Origin: Collimonas fungivorans Ter331
GTDB taxonomy: Bacteria; Pseudomonadota; Gammaproteobacteria; Burkholderiales; Burkholderiaceae_D
Assembly: GCF_000221045.1 (NCBI RefSeq)
Contig: NC_015856.1
Location: forward strand, 992,001-1,056,000
Length of the DNA stretch: 64,000 bases
Direction of reading: 5' to 3'
The translations under genes and the position numbers were made by a program. Each line of letters opens with the position of its first letter. Position 1 is the first letter of the stretch. This document shows, one piece after another, positions 11,822-36,358 of this stretch. Under the pieces are notes generated by a model, which was not told the DNA's origin, ran no database searches, and saw only the letters and a program-made list of their open reading frames with translations.

Positions 11822-12736
11822 TCATTCAAATTCGCCCGATTGTTTCCACGGCACGCGCCCGGTTTGTACTTTGCCGGCGGCGCGGTCGCAATGATCGGGA
11901 TGGTCGTCAAAAAACATGTGCGGCTTGAAGGCCGCCAGCACATCCGACTTGACGATGCCGCCCATGAAAAAGGTTTCGTCGATGGCGACATTCCAGGCGC
12001 GCAGGGTACGGATCACACGCTCATGGGCCGGCGAGGAGCGCGCCGTAACCAGCGCGGTGCGGATAGGCGCCGCATGCCCGTCCGGATTCTTGAAGTTGTT
12101 CTGGATGTAGGACAGCGCCAGCAGCAGCCGTGCAAACGGACCTTGCGGCAATGGCAGCAGGGCGTTTTCGCGCTCGTGTTTTTCAAAGGCTTCAATCCCC
12201 TCGGTCTGGTAGATTTTTTCCGACTCATCCGAAAAAATCACAGCGTCGCCGTCAAAGGCGATGCGGATCTGTTCCAGCTCTTCCAGGGCATTCTCCGGTT
12301 TCTGGTACAGCAGCGCCGCTGCCACGCCGGAATTGACCGCGGCCTGGACGTCATCCTCATGCAAGGATAAAAACAGGCTGACATTGAAGGCATGCAGGTA
12401 AGGCGCCAGCGACGAGCCGCCTGACAATACCGCGCGGGTGATGTCGAGGCCATAGTGCTTGATCGAATTGAAGATGCGCATCGAGGTCTCGCTGGAATTG
12501 CGCGACATCACGACCACTTCGACGAAACGCTGGCCGGTCAGGCGATTCAGCTTCAGCAGCGCTTTCACCAAGGCGAAGCCGGCTCCCGGCTTGAGGATTT
12601 CATTTTCATTGCGCAGCTGGTGGCCGCGATATTCTTCCAGGCCATGCTGGCGAAAGATTGCCTCTTCGGTTTCCAGGTCAAATAGCGCACGGGATGAAAT
12701 CCCGATCACCAGCAAATTATCTAAGGATTGCGGCAT
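11822..12736 (-). CDS. 5'-nucleotidase (PF06189-like)
   Basis: A 304-residue cytoplasmic protein resembling the cytosolic 5'-nucleotidase I family (PF06189), which hydrolyses nucleoside monophosphates. Conserved-looking segments are LVIGISSRALFDLETEEAIF at the start, VEVVVMSRNSSETSMRIFNSI, AFDGDAVIFSDESE, with acidic residues suited to metal binding, and FFMGGIVKSDVLAAFKPHMFFDDHPDHC near the end, which looks like HAD motif IV. It converges on the acyl-CoA ligase gene with only 18 bp between stops. The family call rests on motif memory. Confidence 0.75.
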   Translation of the reverse strand: MPQSLDNLLVIGISSRALFDLETEEAIFRQHGLEEYRGHQLRNENEILKPGAGFALVKALLKLNRLTGQRFVEVVVMSRNSSETSMRIFNSIKHYGLDITRAVLSGGSSLAPYLHAFNVSLFLSLHEDDVQAAVNSGVAAALLYQKPENALEELEQIRIAFDGDAVIFSDESEKIYQTEGIEAFEKHERENALLPLPQGPFARLLLALSYIQNNFKNPDGHAAPIRTALVTARSSPAHERVIRTLRAWNVAIDETFFMGGIVKSDVLAAFKPHMFFDDHPDHCDRAAGKVQTGRVPWKQSGEFE

Positions 12737-30257: not shown

Positions 30258-30941
30258 ATGAATGTAAATGTACGCAATGCAGTCCGCGGTTTGGGGCTGG
30301 GGATGCTCATTGCCGGTTTATCGGTCAACGCCTTGGCGCAGCCGGCGCCCGCCAGTTCCGCGCCGACCGCCGTTTCACCTACTCCGCCCACTGCCCCTCA
30401 GCCTGCGGCCAACAGCACCATCAGCGAATTGCAGCAATTGATGCAGAGTCAAAGCATCAGCGAGATGCGCACTACCTACAACGGCAATTACGGCGCCAGC
30501 CTGCTGTTCAAGCCGGAGAGCCGTACTTATTATGTCGCCCTGTTCCAGCAAAAGAATTTCTGGCGTGTCGTAAAAACCCAGTCGGATGGGCAAGCCGAGC
30601 AGATCTACAAGAGTTTTGTCGGCCAGACCGAAAAGCTGGCCGAGGTGGATATCCGCCGCATCAAGCTGGAAGCGGAGAAGACCTACACCGAACAGCTGAT
30701 TGCAGCCCAGGAAACCCGCCTCAACGCCTTGCAAAACGATCTCGTGGTGCAGCAGCAGCAGGAACAGAACGTTAGCGTCCAGCAGGACCAGGCGCGCCAG
30801 CAAGCGCAGCTGCTGAGCAACAAGCAACAAGCGGCTCGCAACGAGTTGCGCGGCTTGCAAAACCGTATCCGCACGCTGGAAGCCCAGCAGACCATACTGG
30901 ATAACAGCAATTACGGCGACGCCAAGACCAGCAAGAAATAA
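30258..30941 (+). CDS. DUF2968 exported coiled-coil protein
   Basis: A 227-residue secreted or periplasmic protein. Signal peptide ends near ALAQ (residue 28), followed by a Pro/Ala/Thr linker (PAPASSAPTAVSPTPPTA) and a short globular part (SISEMRTTYNGNYGASLLFK, YYVALFQQKNFWRVVKTQ). Residues about 120-210 are a heptad-like coiled coil rich in Gln/Glu/Arg. This layout matches DUF2968, known mainly from Burkholderiales. The gene follows the VpsR-like activator after 148 bp, a linkage that suggests joint function, but no role is established. Confidence 0.75.
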   Translation: MNVNVRNAVRGLGLGMLIAGLSVNALAQPAPASSAPTAVSPTPPTAPQPAANSTISELQQLMQSQSISEMRTTYNGNYGASLLFKPESRTYYVALFQQKNFWRVVKTQSDGQAEQIYKSFVGQTEKLAEVDIRRIKLEAEKTYTEQLIAAQETRLNALQNDLVVQQQQEQNVSVQQDQARQQAQLLSNKQQAARNELRGLQNRIRTLEAQQTILDNSNYGDAKTSKK

Positions 30942-33330: not shown

Positions 33331-33429
33331 GCAAAACAAAAAGGCCTCCATTTCTGGAAGCCTTATGTCTGTTGGTGCAGAGAACCGGAATCGAACCGGC
33401 ACGCTGTCTCCAGTGCGGGATTTTGAGTC
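33331..33429. repeat. Left 99-bp direct repeat (attL-like)
   Basis: Matches 36230-36328 at 95 of 99 positions with no gap. It includes a terminator hairpin (arms AAGGCTTCCA and TGGAGGCCTT on the minus strand) and the 3' 57 bp of tRNA-Leu. Identity stops abruptly after GAGTC, inside the anticodon stem. Confidence 0.9.
33373..33429 (-). pseudogene. Truncated tRNA-Leu 3' fragment
   Basis: Contains the CCA end, acceptor 3' strand, T arm, variable arm and anticodon loop of tRNA-Leu, but lacks the D arm and 5' acceptor strand. Three of the four repeat differences fall here and disrupt acceptor and variable-arm pairing, so it is not functional. Confidence 0.9.
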
Positions 33430-33442
33430 TATAGTTTCAACA

Positions 33443-33645
33443 TTAATAATCAAAGGGTTGCGCTAAATATTGTTCCGCAATTTTAGATATATTGTCCTTC
33501 GAATAGCCAACATTGACGCGGGTGTTGATGGAATTGCGGAGCAATATATTCGCGTAAACGACTTGCGAAATATTTCGTTTCTTTTATTTATCGAAGCGTC
33601 ATCCACTCCCTCATAATAGCTACTGATTGAGCCAAAGTGTTGCAC
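33443..33645 (-). pseudogene. Possible decayed ORF at the island's left end
   Basis: On the minus strand one frame reads a protein-like VQHFGSISSYYEGVDDASIN and KRNEIFRK, then becomes implausible, while the adjacent frame continues with NSINTRVNVGYSKDNISKIA and EQYLAQPFDY before a TAA at 33445-33443. A single frameshift near 33570 would join them into one C-terminal fragment. It ends beside the tRNA fragment, where an integrase gene would be expected, but I recognise no integrase motif and cannot name the family. Confidence 0.3.
33467..33547. repeat. 16-bp inverted repeat near left island end
   Basis: ATATTGTTCCGCAATT (33467-33482) and AATTGCGGAGCAATAT (33532-33547) are inverted copies with one mismatch and a 49-bp spacer. 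Their core, TTGCGGARCAA, recurs twice at the right end. Possible recombinase arm sites or operator. Confidence 0.6.
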
Positions 33646-33671
33646 TAGACAATCGGGATATGAGGCTAAAG

Positions 33672-34472
33672 ATGAGCGAACTCGAGCAGAATGGTGGCGC
33701 AGCTAGGAACCCAGTAAAGTGTCGGCTATGTCTCGGCAACGTTTGCGATGTTGGTCCGTTGCGCCAATCTCACATCATTCCGCGTTTTATTTTCCTCAAA
33801 TCTAAATCACCGAAAGGAAGAATGATTGTCCACGATGGTGGAGCGGATCCGGCCTATCAGTCACAGGAGGATTGGAAAGAACCGATGCTTTGTGCCAGCT
33901 GCGAACATAGAATAAAAATAAACTTCGAGGACTATTTAAAAGATATTTTATATCCCAGAAAGAAGAATTCAATTCTCGTCGATGGACCAGATTCGATCCG
34001 AATTGCGGCCAAGGCTGATCAATTAGCCCTTTCCCTTCTGAGTATTTTCTGGAGAGCAGTGGTGTCAACCCTACCCGAATTTACGTGGGCCGTCGTGCCG
34101 CACTACATTGAGGAGGGTCTTCGATTATGGATTTTTGGAAATACAATACCTGCCAATTGGCAAAAACTAGTATTGGTTAAAGTCGTACAAATTAAAGCCG
34201 ACAATGATCAGGTCATTGCTTTTTTGATGAGACCATTTTCTCGTAAAAAGAATGATCAGACTTTTGATTTCGTCTATATTTGTGGCGGCTACTGCGTAGT
34301 TTTCACTATCCCGCCTCCACTAAATCACACTTTTCATCGGAGCGACGCGTTGCGGCCGGGATCCCGGATAGTCCGAATTCGGAAAGTTTCTTACAAGATG
34401 ATCCCCGAACTGAAGAAGGCAGTTGACGAGATGCTTAAAGCCGGACTCCGAGGAAGCGTCTCAGTCGAGTGA
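33672..34472 (+). CDS. HNH-like zinc-finger protein of the mini-island
   Basis: A 266-residue protein of unknown function. ATG 33672 is preferred: GAGG lies 6 bp upstream; two longer in-frame starts (33627 TTG, 33660 ATG) lack a site. Residues 17-20 (CRLC), SHIIP at 33-37 and CASCEH at 74-79 form a C-x2-C...H...C-x2-C arrangement like treble-clef HNH endonuclease domains, though the canonical N-H pair is not evident, so catalysis is uncertain. The rest is mixed alpha/beta (LSLLSIFWRAVVSTLPEFTW, LVLVKVVQIKADND) with no recognised domain. Codon use is AT-richer than the chromosome around it. It is followed after 52 bp by the SEC-C nuclease-like gene; a paired action is inferred. Confidence 0.7.
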   Translation: MSELEQNGGAARNPVKCRLCLGNVCDVGPLRQSHIIPRFIFLKSKSPKGRMIVHDGGADPAYQSQEDWKEPMLCASCEHRIKINFEDYLKDILYPRKKNSILVDGPDSIRIAAKADQLALSLLSIFWRAVVSTLPEFTWAVVPHYIEEGLRLWIFGNTIPANWQKLVLVKVVQIKADNDQVIAFLMRPFSRKKNDQTFDFVYICGGYCVVFTIPPPLNHTFHRSDALRPGSRIVRIRKVSYKMIPELKKAVDEMLKAGLRGSVSVE

Positions 34473-34492
34473 GATGATCAGTGAGATGATCA
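34469..34492 (+). repeat. Tandem 12-bp duplication at the gene junction
   Basis: GTGAGATGATCA occurs twice head to tail across the stop codon of the HNH-like gene. Probably a replication-slippage duplication; it spaces the two island genes. Confidence 0.8.
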
Positions 34493-34524
34493 ATTGAATA
34501 GTGACGAAAATTGAAGGATGTTAA

Positions 34525-36147
34525 ATGGCGAAAATCGGGCGTAATGATCCCTGCCCATGCAAGAGCGGGGAAAAGTACAAAAAATGCCATGGTTCCGTTG
34601 AACATCTTGATCGTATTGCCCGTGTGATGGAAAGTGTGCCTCACGTTCTGGCGCAAGCGGATGCTGCAAAGGTTCAACGGGAGCGTCAGCAGGGATTTGG
34701 CGCCCCCATCATATCGGCTGAATTGAATGGGACACGTATGGTGGCTGTGAGAAACCGGCTATTTCAGTCGAGAAACTGGAACACTTTTCATGATTTTTTA
34801 ATTGAATACATCAAAGCAACAATGTCCCCTGATTGGTGGAAGGGGGAGGTCACAAAACCGTTAGAACAGCGGCACCCTATAACCCATTGGTACCAGAAGG
34901 TTTATGAGCATTCGCGAAAATTCATCACTGAACCTGGGAAGGTGTCTAGCGGCCCGTTGACCGGAGCTTACGCGGCCTTTTTACAGCTTGCATATGATCT
35001 CTATGCACTTGATCATAACGTCGAGCTTCAGGAGAAACTTTTAGGCCGTTTGAAGAACCTCGATAATTTCGAGGGTGCCAGATATGAGGTATCCGTCGCG
35101 GGAATGTTAATACGAGCTGGATTCCTGTTGGAGTTTGAGAACGAAGATGACCGTAGCTCAACACACTGCGAGTTTACGGCTACGTACAAGAAAACCGGTA
35201 AGAAATTCTCGGTCGAGGCGAAACGAAGAGGGGCGGAGATTCGACCCCGTTTGATTCGATTGCTACAAGGCGCGTTAAGAAAAAAGGCAAACTATCAACG
35301 GATTGTCTTCATTGATATCAATATGCCGGATGATGCAAGGGATGAATCCCTGCCCGCGTTTATGGCAAGCGCCCGCGACCGTCTGCGAATGTACGAACGA
35401 ACCGATCCGGCATCGAAATTGCTTCCATCAGCGTATATCCTGGTTACGAATTCTCCTTTTCAGCATCATCTAGATCAAGATGCTCCACGGTCAATTGTGT
35501 TAACTACCTCGTTTCACATACCTGAACTAAGTGAAGGTTGGAAATTTGATACATTGCGCCAGGCGATTACCGTCAGGGACGCACACGTTGAAATGCTCGA
35601 TTTGATTCAGTCAATGCAGGATCATTCAGAAATCCCCGCAACCTTTGATGGAGAAATCCCCGAATTTGCATTTGGAGAAAACAAGCACAGATTGATAGTT
35701 GGTGAGCGGTACGAATTGCCAAACAACGACGGAGGTCTTATTGTTGGAACTTTGTCTTCGGCTGAGGTGATCGAACAGGAAAAGACCGCGATGTGTGTGA
35801 TGACTCTTGAAGAAGGCAGCGTTGCGCTCTGTAAAATGCCATTGTCAGATTTGGAGATGGCAGCGTGGCGCAGGCATCCGGATACCTTTTTTGGAGTTGT
35901 CGGACAGCGCAATACAAGAGTAAATAATGCGCTTGAGATGTATGATTTTTTATTCAGAACCTATCAAAAAACGTCAAAGGACAAGTTGATTGAATTCATG
36001 GCGCCTGTCATGGATAAGGCGATGCTGGTTGATTTAGATCAGCCGACGTTGGCAAGCATGTATTGCGAGCGAATGGCGATTTCAGCGATGGCAAACGTGT
36101 CCCAGCGCGAGTCGACAGTGAGTAATCGTGATGATGTCGTCTTATAA
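34525..36147 (+). CDS. SEC-C motif protein with PD-(D/E)XK nuclease-like core
   Basis: A 540-residue protein, ATG preceded by AAGGA. Residues 5-23 (GRNDPCPCKSGEKYKKCHG) are a textbook SEC-C zinc motif with C10, C12, C21 and H22. Residues about 184-235 show a restriction-endonuclease-like pattern: a helix with E188 (GARYEVSVAGMLIRAG), an acidic strand residue E216 (HCEFTA) and E231-A-K233 in KKFSVEAKRRG, which is the E-x-K half of a PD-(D/E)XK active site. The C-terminal 300 residues are unassigned. The arrangement suggests a nucleic-acid-cleaving effector, perhaps anti-phage, working with the upstream HNH-like protein. SEC-C is seen; the nuclease is motif-based inference. Confidence 0.7.
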   Translation: MAKIGRNDPCPCKSGEKYKKCHGSVEHLDRIARVMESVPHVLAQADAAKVQRERQQGFGAPIISAELNGTRMVAVRNRLFQSRNWNTFHDFLIEYIKATMSPDWWKGEVTKPLEQRHPITHWYQKVYEHSRKFITEPGKVSSGPLTGAYAAFLQLAYDLYALDHNVELQEKLLGRLKNLDNFEGARYEVSVAGMLIRAGFLLEFENEDDRSSTHCEFTATYKKTGKKFSVEAKRRGAEIRPRLIRLLQGALRKKANYQRIVFIDINMPDDARDESLPAFMASARDRLRMYERTDPASKLLPSAYILVTNSPFQHHLDQDAPRSIVLTTSFHIPELSEGWKFDTLRQAITVRDAHVEMLDLIQSMQDHSEIPATFDGEIPEFAFGENKHRLIVGERYELPNNDGGLIVGTLSSAEVIEQEKTAMCVMTLEEGSVALCKMPLSDLEMAAWRRHPDTFFGVVGQRNTRVNNALEMYDFLFRTYQKTSKDKLIEFMAPVMDKAMLVDLDQPTLASMYCERMAISAMANVSQRESTVSNRDDVVL

Positions 36148-36203
36148 GGCGATGGCTCTTAAGTTCGAATTACGAAGTCTAGGCGCATATGACAACATGC
36201 AAA

Positions 36204-36233
36204 TTGCGGAGCAAGCGCTGATTTGCGGAGCAA
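36204..36233. repeat. Paired TTGCGGAGCAA motifs at right island end
   Basis: Two direct copies of the 11-mer TTGCGGAGCAA at 36204-36214 and 36223-36233, 19 bp apart; the second abuts the right 99-bp repeat. The same core occurs twice at the left end in opposite orientations. Confidence 0.65.
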
Positions 36234-36328
36234 AACAAAAAGGCCTCCATTTCTGAAAGCCTTATGTCTGTTGGTGCCGAGAGCCGGAATCGAACCGGCA
36301 CGCTGTCTCCAGCGCGGGATTTTGAGTC
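36230..36328. repeat. Right 99-bp direct repeat (attR-like)
   Basis: Partner of 33331-33429. It contains the terminator and 3' part of the intact tRNA-Leu gene, so the element's insertion preserved a functional tRNA. Confidence 0.9.
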
Positions 36329-36358
36329 CCGTGCGTCTACCTATTCCGCCATCTCGGC
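36272..36358 (-). tRNA. tRNA-Leu (anticodon CAA)
   Basis: 87 nt including an encoded CCA. Acceptor GCCGAGA pairs with TCTCGGC, the anticodon stem CGGGA/TCCCG encloses CTCAAAA with anticodon CAA, a long class II variable arm (GCTGGAGACAGC) and T arm GCCGGTTCGATTCCGGC are present. It reads UUG codons. A terminator lies just downstream (36240-36262). Confidence 0.96.

Follow-up and report, generated by a model that had tools for sequence, protein, structure and literature searches.

A two-gene, integrase-less mini-island at tRNA-Leu(CAA) of Collimonas fungivorans Ter331 and its putative defence nuclease

Structure and composition of the island

The analysed stretch of the Collimonas fungivorans Ter331 genome (contig NC_015856.1, positions 992,001 to 1,056,000, forward strand; 64,000 nucleotides, hereafter the window) harbours a small island at a tRNA-Leu(CAA) gene. 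The island encodes two proteins, by open reading frame 1 (ORF1) and ORF2, both intact and on the same strand, and is bounded by direct repeats. Its main features are:

33331-33429, no strand: distal repeat, attL-like; displaced tRNA-Leu 3' end and terminator-like region
33672-34472, forward strand: ORF1, 266 aa, divergent HNH-like zinc protein (ORF list, families and alignment)
34525-36147, forward strand: ORF2, 540 aa, N-terminal SEC-C zinc motif and predicted PD-(D/E)XK core with E188, E216, E231 and K233 (Pfam, alignment and model)
36230-36328, no strand: tRNA-proximal repeat, attR-like (repeat comparison)
36272-36358, reverse strand: intact tRNA-Leu(CAA), integration target (tRNA search and Rfam)

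The repeats are 99 nt long and 96% identical, with four differences. Because the right copy overlaps the intact tRNA-Leu(CAA), each copy can be described as the 3' 57 bp of this gene plus 42 bp downstream, and a terminator-like hairpin lies within the 42-bp part. The segment between the repeats spans about 2.9 kb and has a GC content of 46%, compared with 59% in the 3 kb of either flank, a difference also present in sliding windows. The original prediction had described 99-bp repeats at tRNA-Leu(CAA) and an AT-richer segment; the repeats are confirmed, as is the composition in terms of GC. The remaining listed ORFs in the island are at most 96 aa long and mostly overlap ORF1 or ORF2, and the Rfam search of the island for further RNA, at gathering scores, gave tRNA-Leu alone. 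A porin-like gene forms the left flank. At window positions 34466-34492 a tandem duplication of about 12 bp (AGTGAGATGATC) runs from the end of ORF1 into the gap before ORF2.

Insertion site in sister genomes and absence of an integrase

The genus comprises 15 genomes including that of the window, and the surroundings of tRNA-Leu were read in 13 of the 14 relatives, G010 being left out. Genome G010 (L009, L041), although placed in this genus, amounts to only 1.7 Mb at a completeness of 99%, compared with 4.5-5.9 Mb in the others. The empty tRNA-Leu site that had been named beforehand as a check was present and clean in three of the 13 (G004, G005 and G009), where the porin-like gene is followed by one repeat copy and tRNA-Leu. 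Since three genomes of the genus join both flanks at a single repeat copy, the repeat-bounded insertion is more than chance. Compared with the empty site of G004, the distal copy differs at 3 of 99 positions and the tRNA-proximal copy at 1 of 99; the insertion is therefore not brand new.

An integrase gene (PF00589) adjoins the same tRNA-Leu in G008 and G003. Genome G008 also possesses a 60-nt piece of the repeat on a separate contig, near a gene that by eye resembles window positions 30258-30941. Extra repeat fragments were found in G014 at about 33 and 39 kb from its tRNA-Leu, with no PF00589 match on that tRNA-Leu contig. The remaining sister sites have different neighbour genes. The interior of the island gave no nucleotide match in the tRNA-Leu stretches of the 13 sister genomes, and their left ends are only partly alike. 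Also in G014, tRNA-Leu fragments with related arm-type motifs (see below) bound a segment of about 6 kb (L217:692-6857), on a contig without a PF00589 match.

No PF00589 match was detected in the island or in the rest of the window, and tblastn with four integrase proteins revealed no integrase trace in the island. Searches of ORF1 and ORF2 against Pfam, NCBIfam and PADLOC gave no integrase, relaxase or conjugation family. The host genome has six PF00589 matches, all outside the island and four of them near a tRNA-Lys, -Val, -Ser or -Met gene. No close cognate integrase was found elsewhere in the host by tblastn with the G008 and G003 enzymes, the best host matches to these tRNA-Leu integrases showing 25-39% identity over pieces of 31-227 residues.

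Candidate recombination sites

Judged by sequence, the ends of the island look like the arms of an attachment site, with a core, a site resembling that of the integration host factor (IHF) and arm-like sites, all of which may serve recombination. The candidate sites are:

33448-33460, forward strand: IHF-consensus match AATCAAAGGGTTG just inside the left repeat, putative binding site
33470-33480, reverse strand: arm-type-like site TTGCGGAACAA, inverted, one mismatch to the 11-mer
33534-33544, forward strand: arm-type-like site TTGCGGAGCAA, exact 11-mer
36204-36214, forward strand: arm-type-like site TTGCGGAGCAA, exact 11-mer
36223-36233, forward strand: arm-type-like site TTGCGGAGCAA, exact 11-mer, overlapping the right repeat

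The motif WATCAANNNNTTR, the IHF consensus, has two matches in the 64 kb when both strands are counted, one beginning 19 bp past the left repeat and the other at 35293 within ORF2. Four left repeats are followed by a match that starts 11-20 bp further on, namely those of the window, of a small island of a sister genus (L264), of one copy of G014 (L217) and of G008 (L220), and in L264 and L217 this left-end match is the sole one in the whole stretch. Matches at other positions were found in L229 (two), L231 (one) and L224 (one).

Arm-type-like sites of the form TTGCGGA(G/A)CAA number four, two at each end of the island. The exact 11-mer TTGCGGAGCAA occurs three times in the 64 kb, always at the island ends, compared with about 0.03 expected from base composition. 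With one mismatch allowed the window holds five matches, a count that is not unusual (12 of 100 shuffles reach 5); what is striking are the exact matches and their placement. Two-mismatch versions of the 11-mer adjoin an att copy in G014, where they are likewise spaced 64 bp apart.

The predicted nuclease ORF2

ORF2 matches the Pfam family SEC-C above cut-off (E 1.3e-8). The residues E188, E216, E231 and K233 (E-E-EAK) are invariant in all 75 aligned sequences. The AlphaFold2 model of ORF2 is of high quality, with a predicted local distance difference test (pLDDT) of 92.3 and a predicted template modelling score of 0.89, and its core comprises a helix (179-197) and three strands (200-204, 217-221 and 227-234) with the catalytic residues in PD-(D/E)XK order. 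Judged by residues and predicted secondary structure, without a fold match, ORF2 is thus a predicted PD-(D/E)XK protein, as the original prediction had proposed together with the SEC-C motif. Compared by sequence with solved structures, only the N-terminal 35 positions match, mostly to SecA tails. Small SH3/Tudor-like chains aligned to ORF2 with probability 1.00 but with E of about 0.05 (ranks 20 and 21), above the threshold of E <= 1e-3, and were rejected; the matching region is presumably the strand-rich part 395-439, which is gapped in L044, L045 and L047. In PADLOC 2.0 ORF2 matched no system model beyond the SEC-C motif, its matches being confined to N-terminal stretches within residues 2-55. 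As a whole ORF2 fits no described family, and it represents an uncharacterised, confidently modelled predicted nuclease with clear catalytic residues, a family candidate for testing.

Relatives of ORF2 are infrequent. The gene was found in one of the 15 genomes of the genus, the other matches being confined to query positions 2-40 (the SEC-C end) and mostly located in frames of 900-940 aa, which we read as SecA. Within the class it occurs in 5 of 369 genomes, that of the window counted, and within the family in 4 of 245. From the genome_contigs collection, the best 80 of 112 matching stretches were used; by record title their hosts include Pseudomonadota, Nitrospira, Planctomycetota, Verrucomicrobia and others. 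No DNA match was present in the E. coli collection. Among the 80 loci from IMG/VR at least eight carry ORF2 relatives (L137-L144), and the other 72 match by the N-terminal stretch only. A phage origin of ORF2 was considered and rejected, with zero relatives in 50,697 phage records.

Small islands with ORF2 relatives in other genomes

A sister genus (L264:3286-6895) has, next to its orthologous tRNA-Leu(CAA) gene, a segment of 3.56 kb bounded by imperfect 46-nt repeats (87%), and the right-hand neighbour of the window is kept beside the tRNA (blastn 72-79%). The segment carries a 353-aa ORF2 relative that lacks SEC-C and retains the catalytic residues (26% identity over 274 columns), together with an unrelated gene of 321 aa and an ORF of 101 aa, and no PF00589 match was found inside. 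In a gammaproteobacterial metagenome-assembled genome (L123:433-7801), three copies of the 47-48-bp 3' end of tRNA-Ala delimit two adjoining units. One of 3.38 kb carries ORF2 and a PDC-S23 protein; the other, of 3.94 kb, carries AbiEi and AbiEii among four genes, of which we read the other two as GNAT-like and class A beta-lactamase-like. The two units share, at 82% identity, a 470-nt stretch that crosses the att copy and enters the left end; their right ends are unlike apart from 59 nt at 88%. The sole PF00589 match of this contig is located about 80 kb away.

In Pseudomonas aylmerensis (L079), 8.0 kb between 48-bp repeats at tRNA-Leu(CAA) contain an ORF2 relative and no PF00589 match; a match of this genome at overlapping coordinates belongs to another contig, since the frame there in L079 is ORF2 only. 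The ends of contig L119 (1-3137) repeat 111 nt of the end of a CTP synthase gene around a unit of about 3.0 kb with ORF2 and one other gene; this arrangement could reflect a circle, a different type of target gene or a contig broken at a repeat during assembly. In L084, 81-nt repeats (1027-1107 and 12190-12270) lie 11.2 kb apart around an ORF2 relative, the first copy within a small signal recognition particle RNA gene.

Exact repeats of at least 18 nt in 93 loci gave 30 pairs, thirteen of them spanning ORF2, several within one locus. In 6 of 83 loci ORF2 has the 3' end of a tRNA facing it within 1,100 nt, compared with 7 of 579 for neighbouring ORFs (Fisher p 0.0027); within 300 nt the figures are 3 of 83 and 3 of 579 (p 0.029). 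The control ORFs were drawn from the same loci and are hence not independent. Near tRNA 5' ends, ORF2 was found in 0 of 83 loci, compared with 14 (1,100 nt) and 9 (300 nt) of the 579 neighbouring ORFs.

Defence genes around ORF2 relatives

Relatives of ORF2 often sit among defence genes. PADLOC models were scanned at E <= 1e-15 against the 142 proteins nearest ORF2, 108 proteins farther away and 142 control proteins, the last drawn at random from 185 proteins of 20 arbitrary regions in 10 genomes, of which five belong to the genus of the window. The near set matched 127 families, the farther set 107 and the control set 8, counts that serve as an indication and not as a rate, because many models match one protein. 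Among the families listed, the near set includes LmuB, Avs1a, a phospholipase effector and type I methyltransferases, with one ABC transporter matched by mad3, and the farther set GajA, GajB, pAgo, JetC, PD-T7-1, PD-T7-5 and type I subunits. The control set matched MzaA, mad2, mad3, HEC-05, LeoA and two PDC candidates. The defence context suggested in the original prediction therefore stands as the setting of ORF2 relatives.

The HNH-like zinc protein ORF1

ORF1 starts at ATG 33672 or TTG 33627, the former picked by eye from a GAGG ribosome-binding-like site. Its family (phrog_19960, phrog_7075 and phrog_26326) is sparse in phages and bacteria: ORF1 was found in 6 of 369 class genomes, own included, and phrog_19960 with its relatives in 9 of 340. 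Viral loci fetched by pattern contain 16 ORF1 relatives. ORF1 itself matched no Pfam family, HNH_5 included, and 6 of the 15 members of an ORF1 alignment matched HNH_5 weakly (best E 0.0053), so that the description as an HNH-like zinc protein survives as a distant likeness. The motifs C-x2-C, S-H and C-x2-C-E are invariant in nine of nine proteins of alignment A2 and in 15 of 15 of A5, 14 of which had been fetched by a DNA pattern demanding H-I-I-P and C-x2-C-E; the relatives in L256 and L258 deviate, with A-H in both and C-D in one. The canonical HNH motif reads D/E-H ... N ... H/N. ORF1 has S-H and C-E in its place and does not conform to it.

PADLOC 2.0 gave no match for ORF1. Its structure model is poor (pLDDT 57.9) and had no PDB match at E <= 1e-3; because of this poor quality the fold was not used. 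The neighbours of ORF1 relatives vary, with phage genes in phages, FRG and TIR genes in two bacteria, and Gabija without ORF2. The gene lies directly 3' of a TIR-domain gene in L054 (7959-9015) and 3' of an FRG-domain gene in L053.

Proposed explanation and alternatives

We interpret the island, with a probability of roughly 0.6, as a non-autonomous tRNA mini-island that is mobilised in trans, similar to a cis-mobilizable element (CIME), and whose main cargo is a stand-alone putative defence nuclease. A lambda-type tyrosine recombinase supplied from elsewhere would have inserted the island into tRNA-Leu(CAA) at its 3' end, restoring the tRNA gene and leaving the displaced 3' end next to the porin-like gene. 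The island would keep putative cis sites (core, IHF site and arm-type sites), and because these are kept it could excise or accrete with a matching integrase, as CIMEs do. ORF2 would most probably cut foreign or modified DNA, or act as a phage-triggered nuclease; the former, type IV-restriction-like reading is suggested because there is no methyltransferase in the island. ORF1 would then be a separate or optional HNH-like zinc protein.

Several observations weigh against this interpretation. L123, L079, L119 and the second of two G014 att copies lack the IHF consensus, and no shared or repeated 9-11-mer was found at the ends of L264. With 4 of 99 positions differing between its repeats, the element may be stranded. 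Concerning the nuclease, the match of ORF2 to Mrr_cat (PF04471) has 17.5 bits and E 0.0046, below the cut-off of 21, and no solved structure in PDB matches at E <= 1e-3. The PADLOC counts refer to overlapping models and not to proteins, and the control is taxonomically narrower than the hosts of ORF2. Most ORF2 relatives have no tRNA or repeat in the DNA examined.

Alternatively, ORF1 and ORF2 could form a dedicated two-component defence system, in which ORF1 senses or nicks and ORF2 executes; we consider this unlikely. In the window ORF1 precedes ORF2 in the same orientation with 52 bp between them, and elsewhere the only ORF2 relatives seen with an ORF1-family gene immediately 5' of them are those of two plasmids from rhizobia, L045 (17-bp overlap) and L047 (6 bp apart). 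One such pair, in Rhizobium CB3060, is located just downstream of Gabija. Because both families are sparse (ORF2 in 5 and ORF1 in 6 of 369 class genomes), repeated adjacency by chance is improbable. However, the ORF1 profile found no match in the 80 genome_contigs and 8 viral_contigs loci with a full ORF2 relative (flanks of up to 6 and 5 kb), and none of the viral ORF1 relatives, inspected by eye, had ORF2 beside it. Sinorhizobium B11 keeps ORF1 without ORF2 just downstream of Gabija, and in mini-islands elsewhere ORF2 relatives stand beside other partner genes. The conserved two-gene system first proposed is therefore weakly supported, with the pair recovered on the two plasmids but in none of the 88 other loci.

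Similarly improbable in our view is that the island is a plain remnant of a larger integrative and conjugative element (ICE) or prophage decayed at tRNA-Leu, with two leftover cargo genes under weak selection. The integrase-carrying elements of relatives at the same tRNA and the 4% divergence of the repeats agree with such an origin, and CIMEs are described as decay products of this kind (PMC7563491). Nevertheless, both genes are intact, the island bears no integrase trace by PF00589 or the four tblastn queries, other integrase-less islands of 3-4 kb with ORF2 relatives exist, and two neighbouring L123 units combine a common left end with different cargo. That the nuclease serves the element and not the cell, by excluding rival elements at the site or by homing, is very improbable: proximity to a tRNA 3' end is more frequent for some ORF2 relatives than for neighbouring ORFs, but most lack a recognisable att site in the DNA examined, and their neighbouring proteins match many anti-phage models.

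That small units without an integrase recur with different cargo, in two cases behind a common left end, goes beyond simple decay and is the novel part of the trans-mobilised mini-island interpretation. More tentatively, such units may represent a class of integrase-less, tRNA-targeting mini-islands of 3-4 kb that retain their recombination sites, carry an exchangeable defence cargo of one or two genes and depend on the integrases of other elements for mobilisation in trans, and in which the SEC-C/PD-(D/E)XK protein would be both a recurrent cargo and an undescribed anti-phage nuclease.

Comparison with known systems

The ORF1 family resembles HNH_5 (PF14279) in its two C-x2-C pairs around a conserved histidine, and differs from it by S-H for the usual D/E-H and by C-E at the end, the window protein having no HNH_5 match. 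Similar to Mrr and type IV enzymes (PF04471), ORF2 has a predicted PD-(D/E)XK core with E-x14-EAK and no methyltransferase beside it in the island; it differs in scoring below the Pfam cut-off, in its N-terminal SEC-C and in having no PDB chain at E <= 1e-3. In the open-access full-text literature we found neither a published SEC-C nuclease in defence nor integrase-less defence islands.

Like the CIMEs described in PMC7563491, with sizes of 1.2-13 kb in the classical cases, the island is flanked by att-like repeats, contains no integrase, relaxase or other recombination or conjugation genes, and carries few cargo genes. In contrast to CIMEs, it stands alone and not in accretion, no parent ICE or integrative and mobilizable element was identified, and similar small units in relatives carry other cargo. 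With Islander-type tRNA islands it shares the restored target tRNA and the displaced 3' fragment at the far end. Because Islander (PMC4383910) requires an integrase inside the island, this island would be omitted, and small trans-mobilised defence carriers would be missing from its lists for the same reason. If the island ends are functional, a single defence gene can pass from one tRNA site to another with no integrase of its own, and hidden defence genes could be sought via duplications of tRNA 3' ends.

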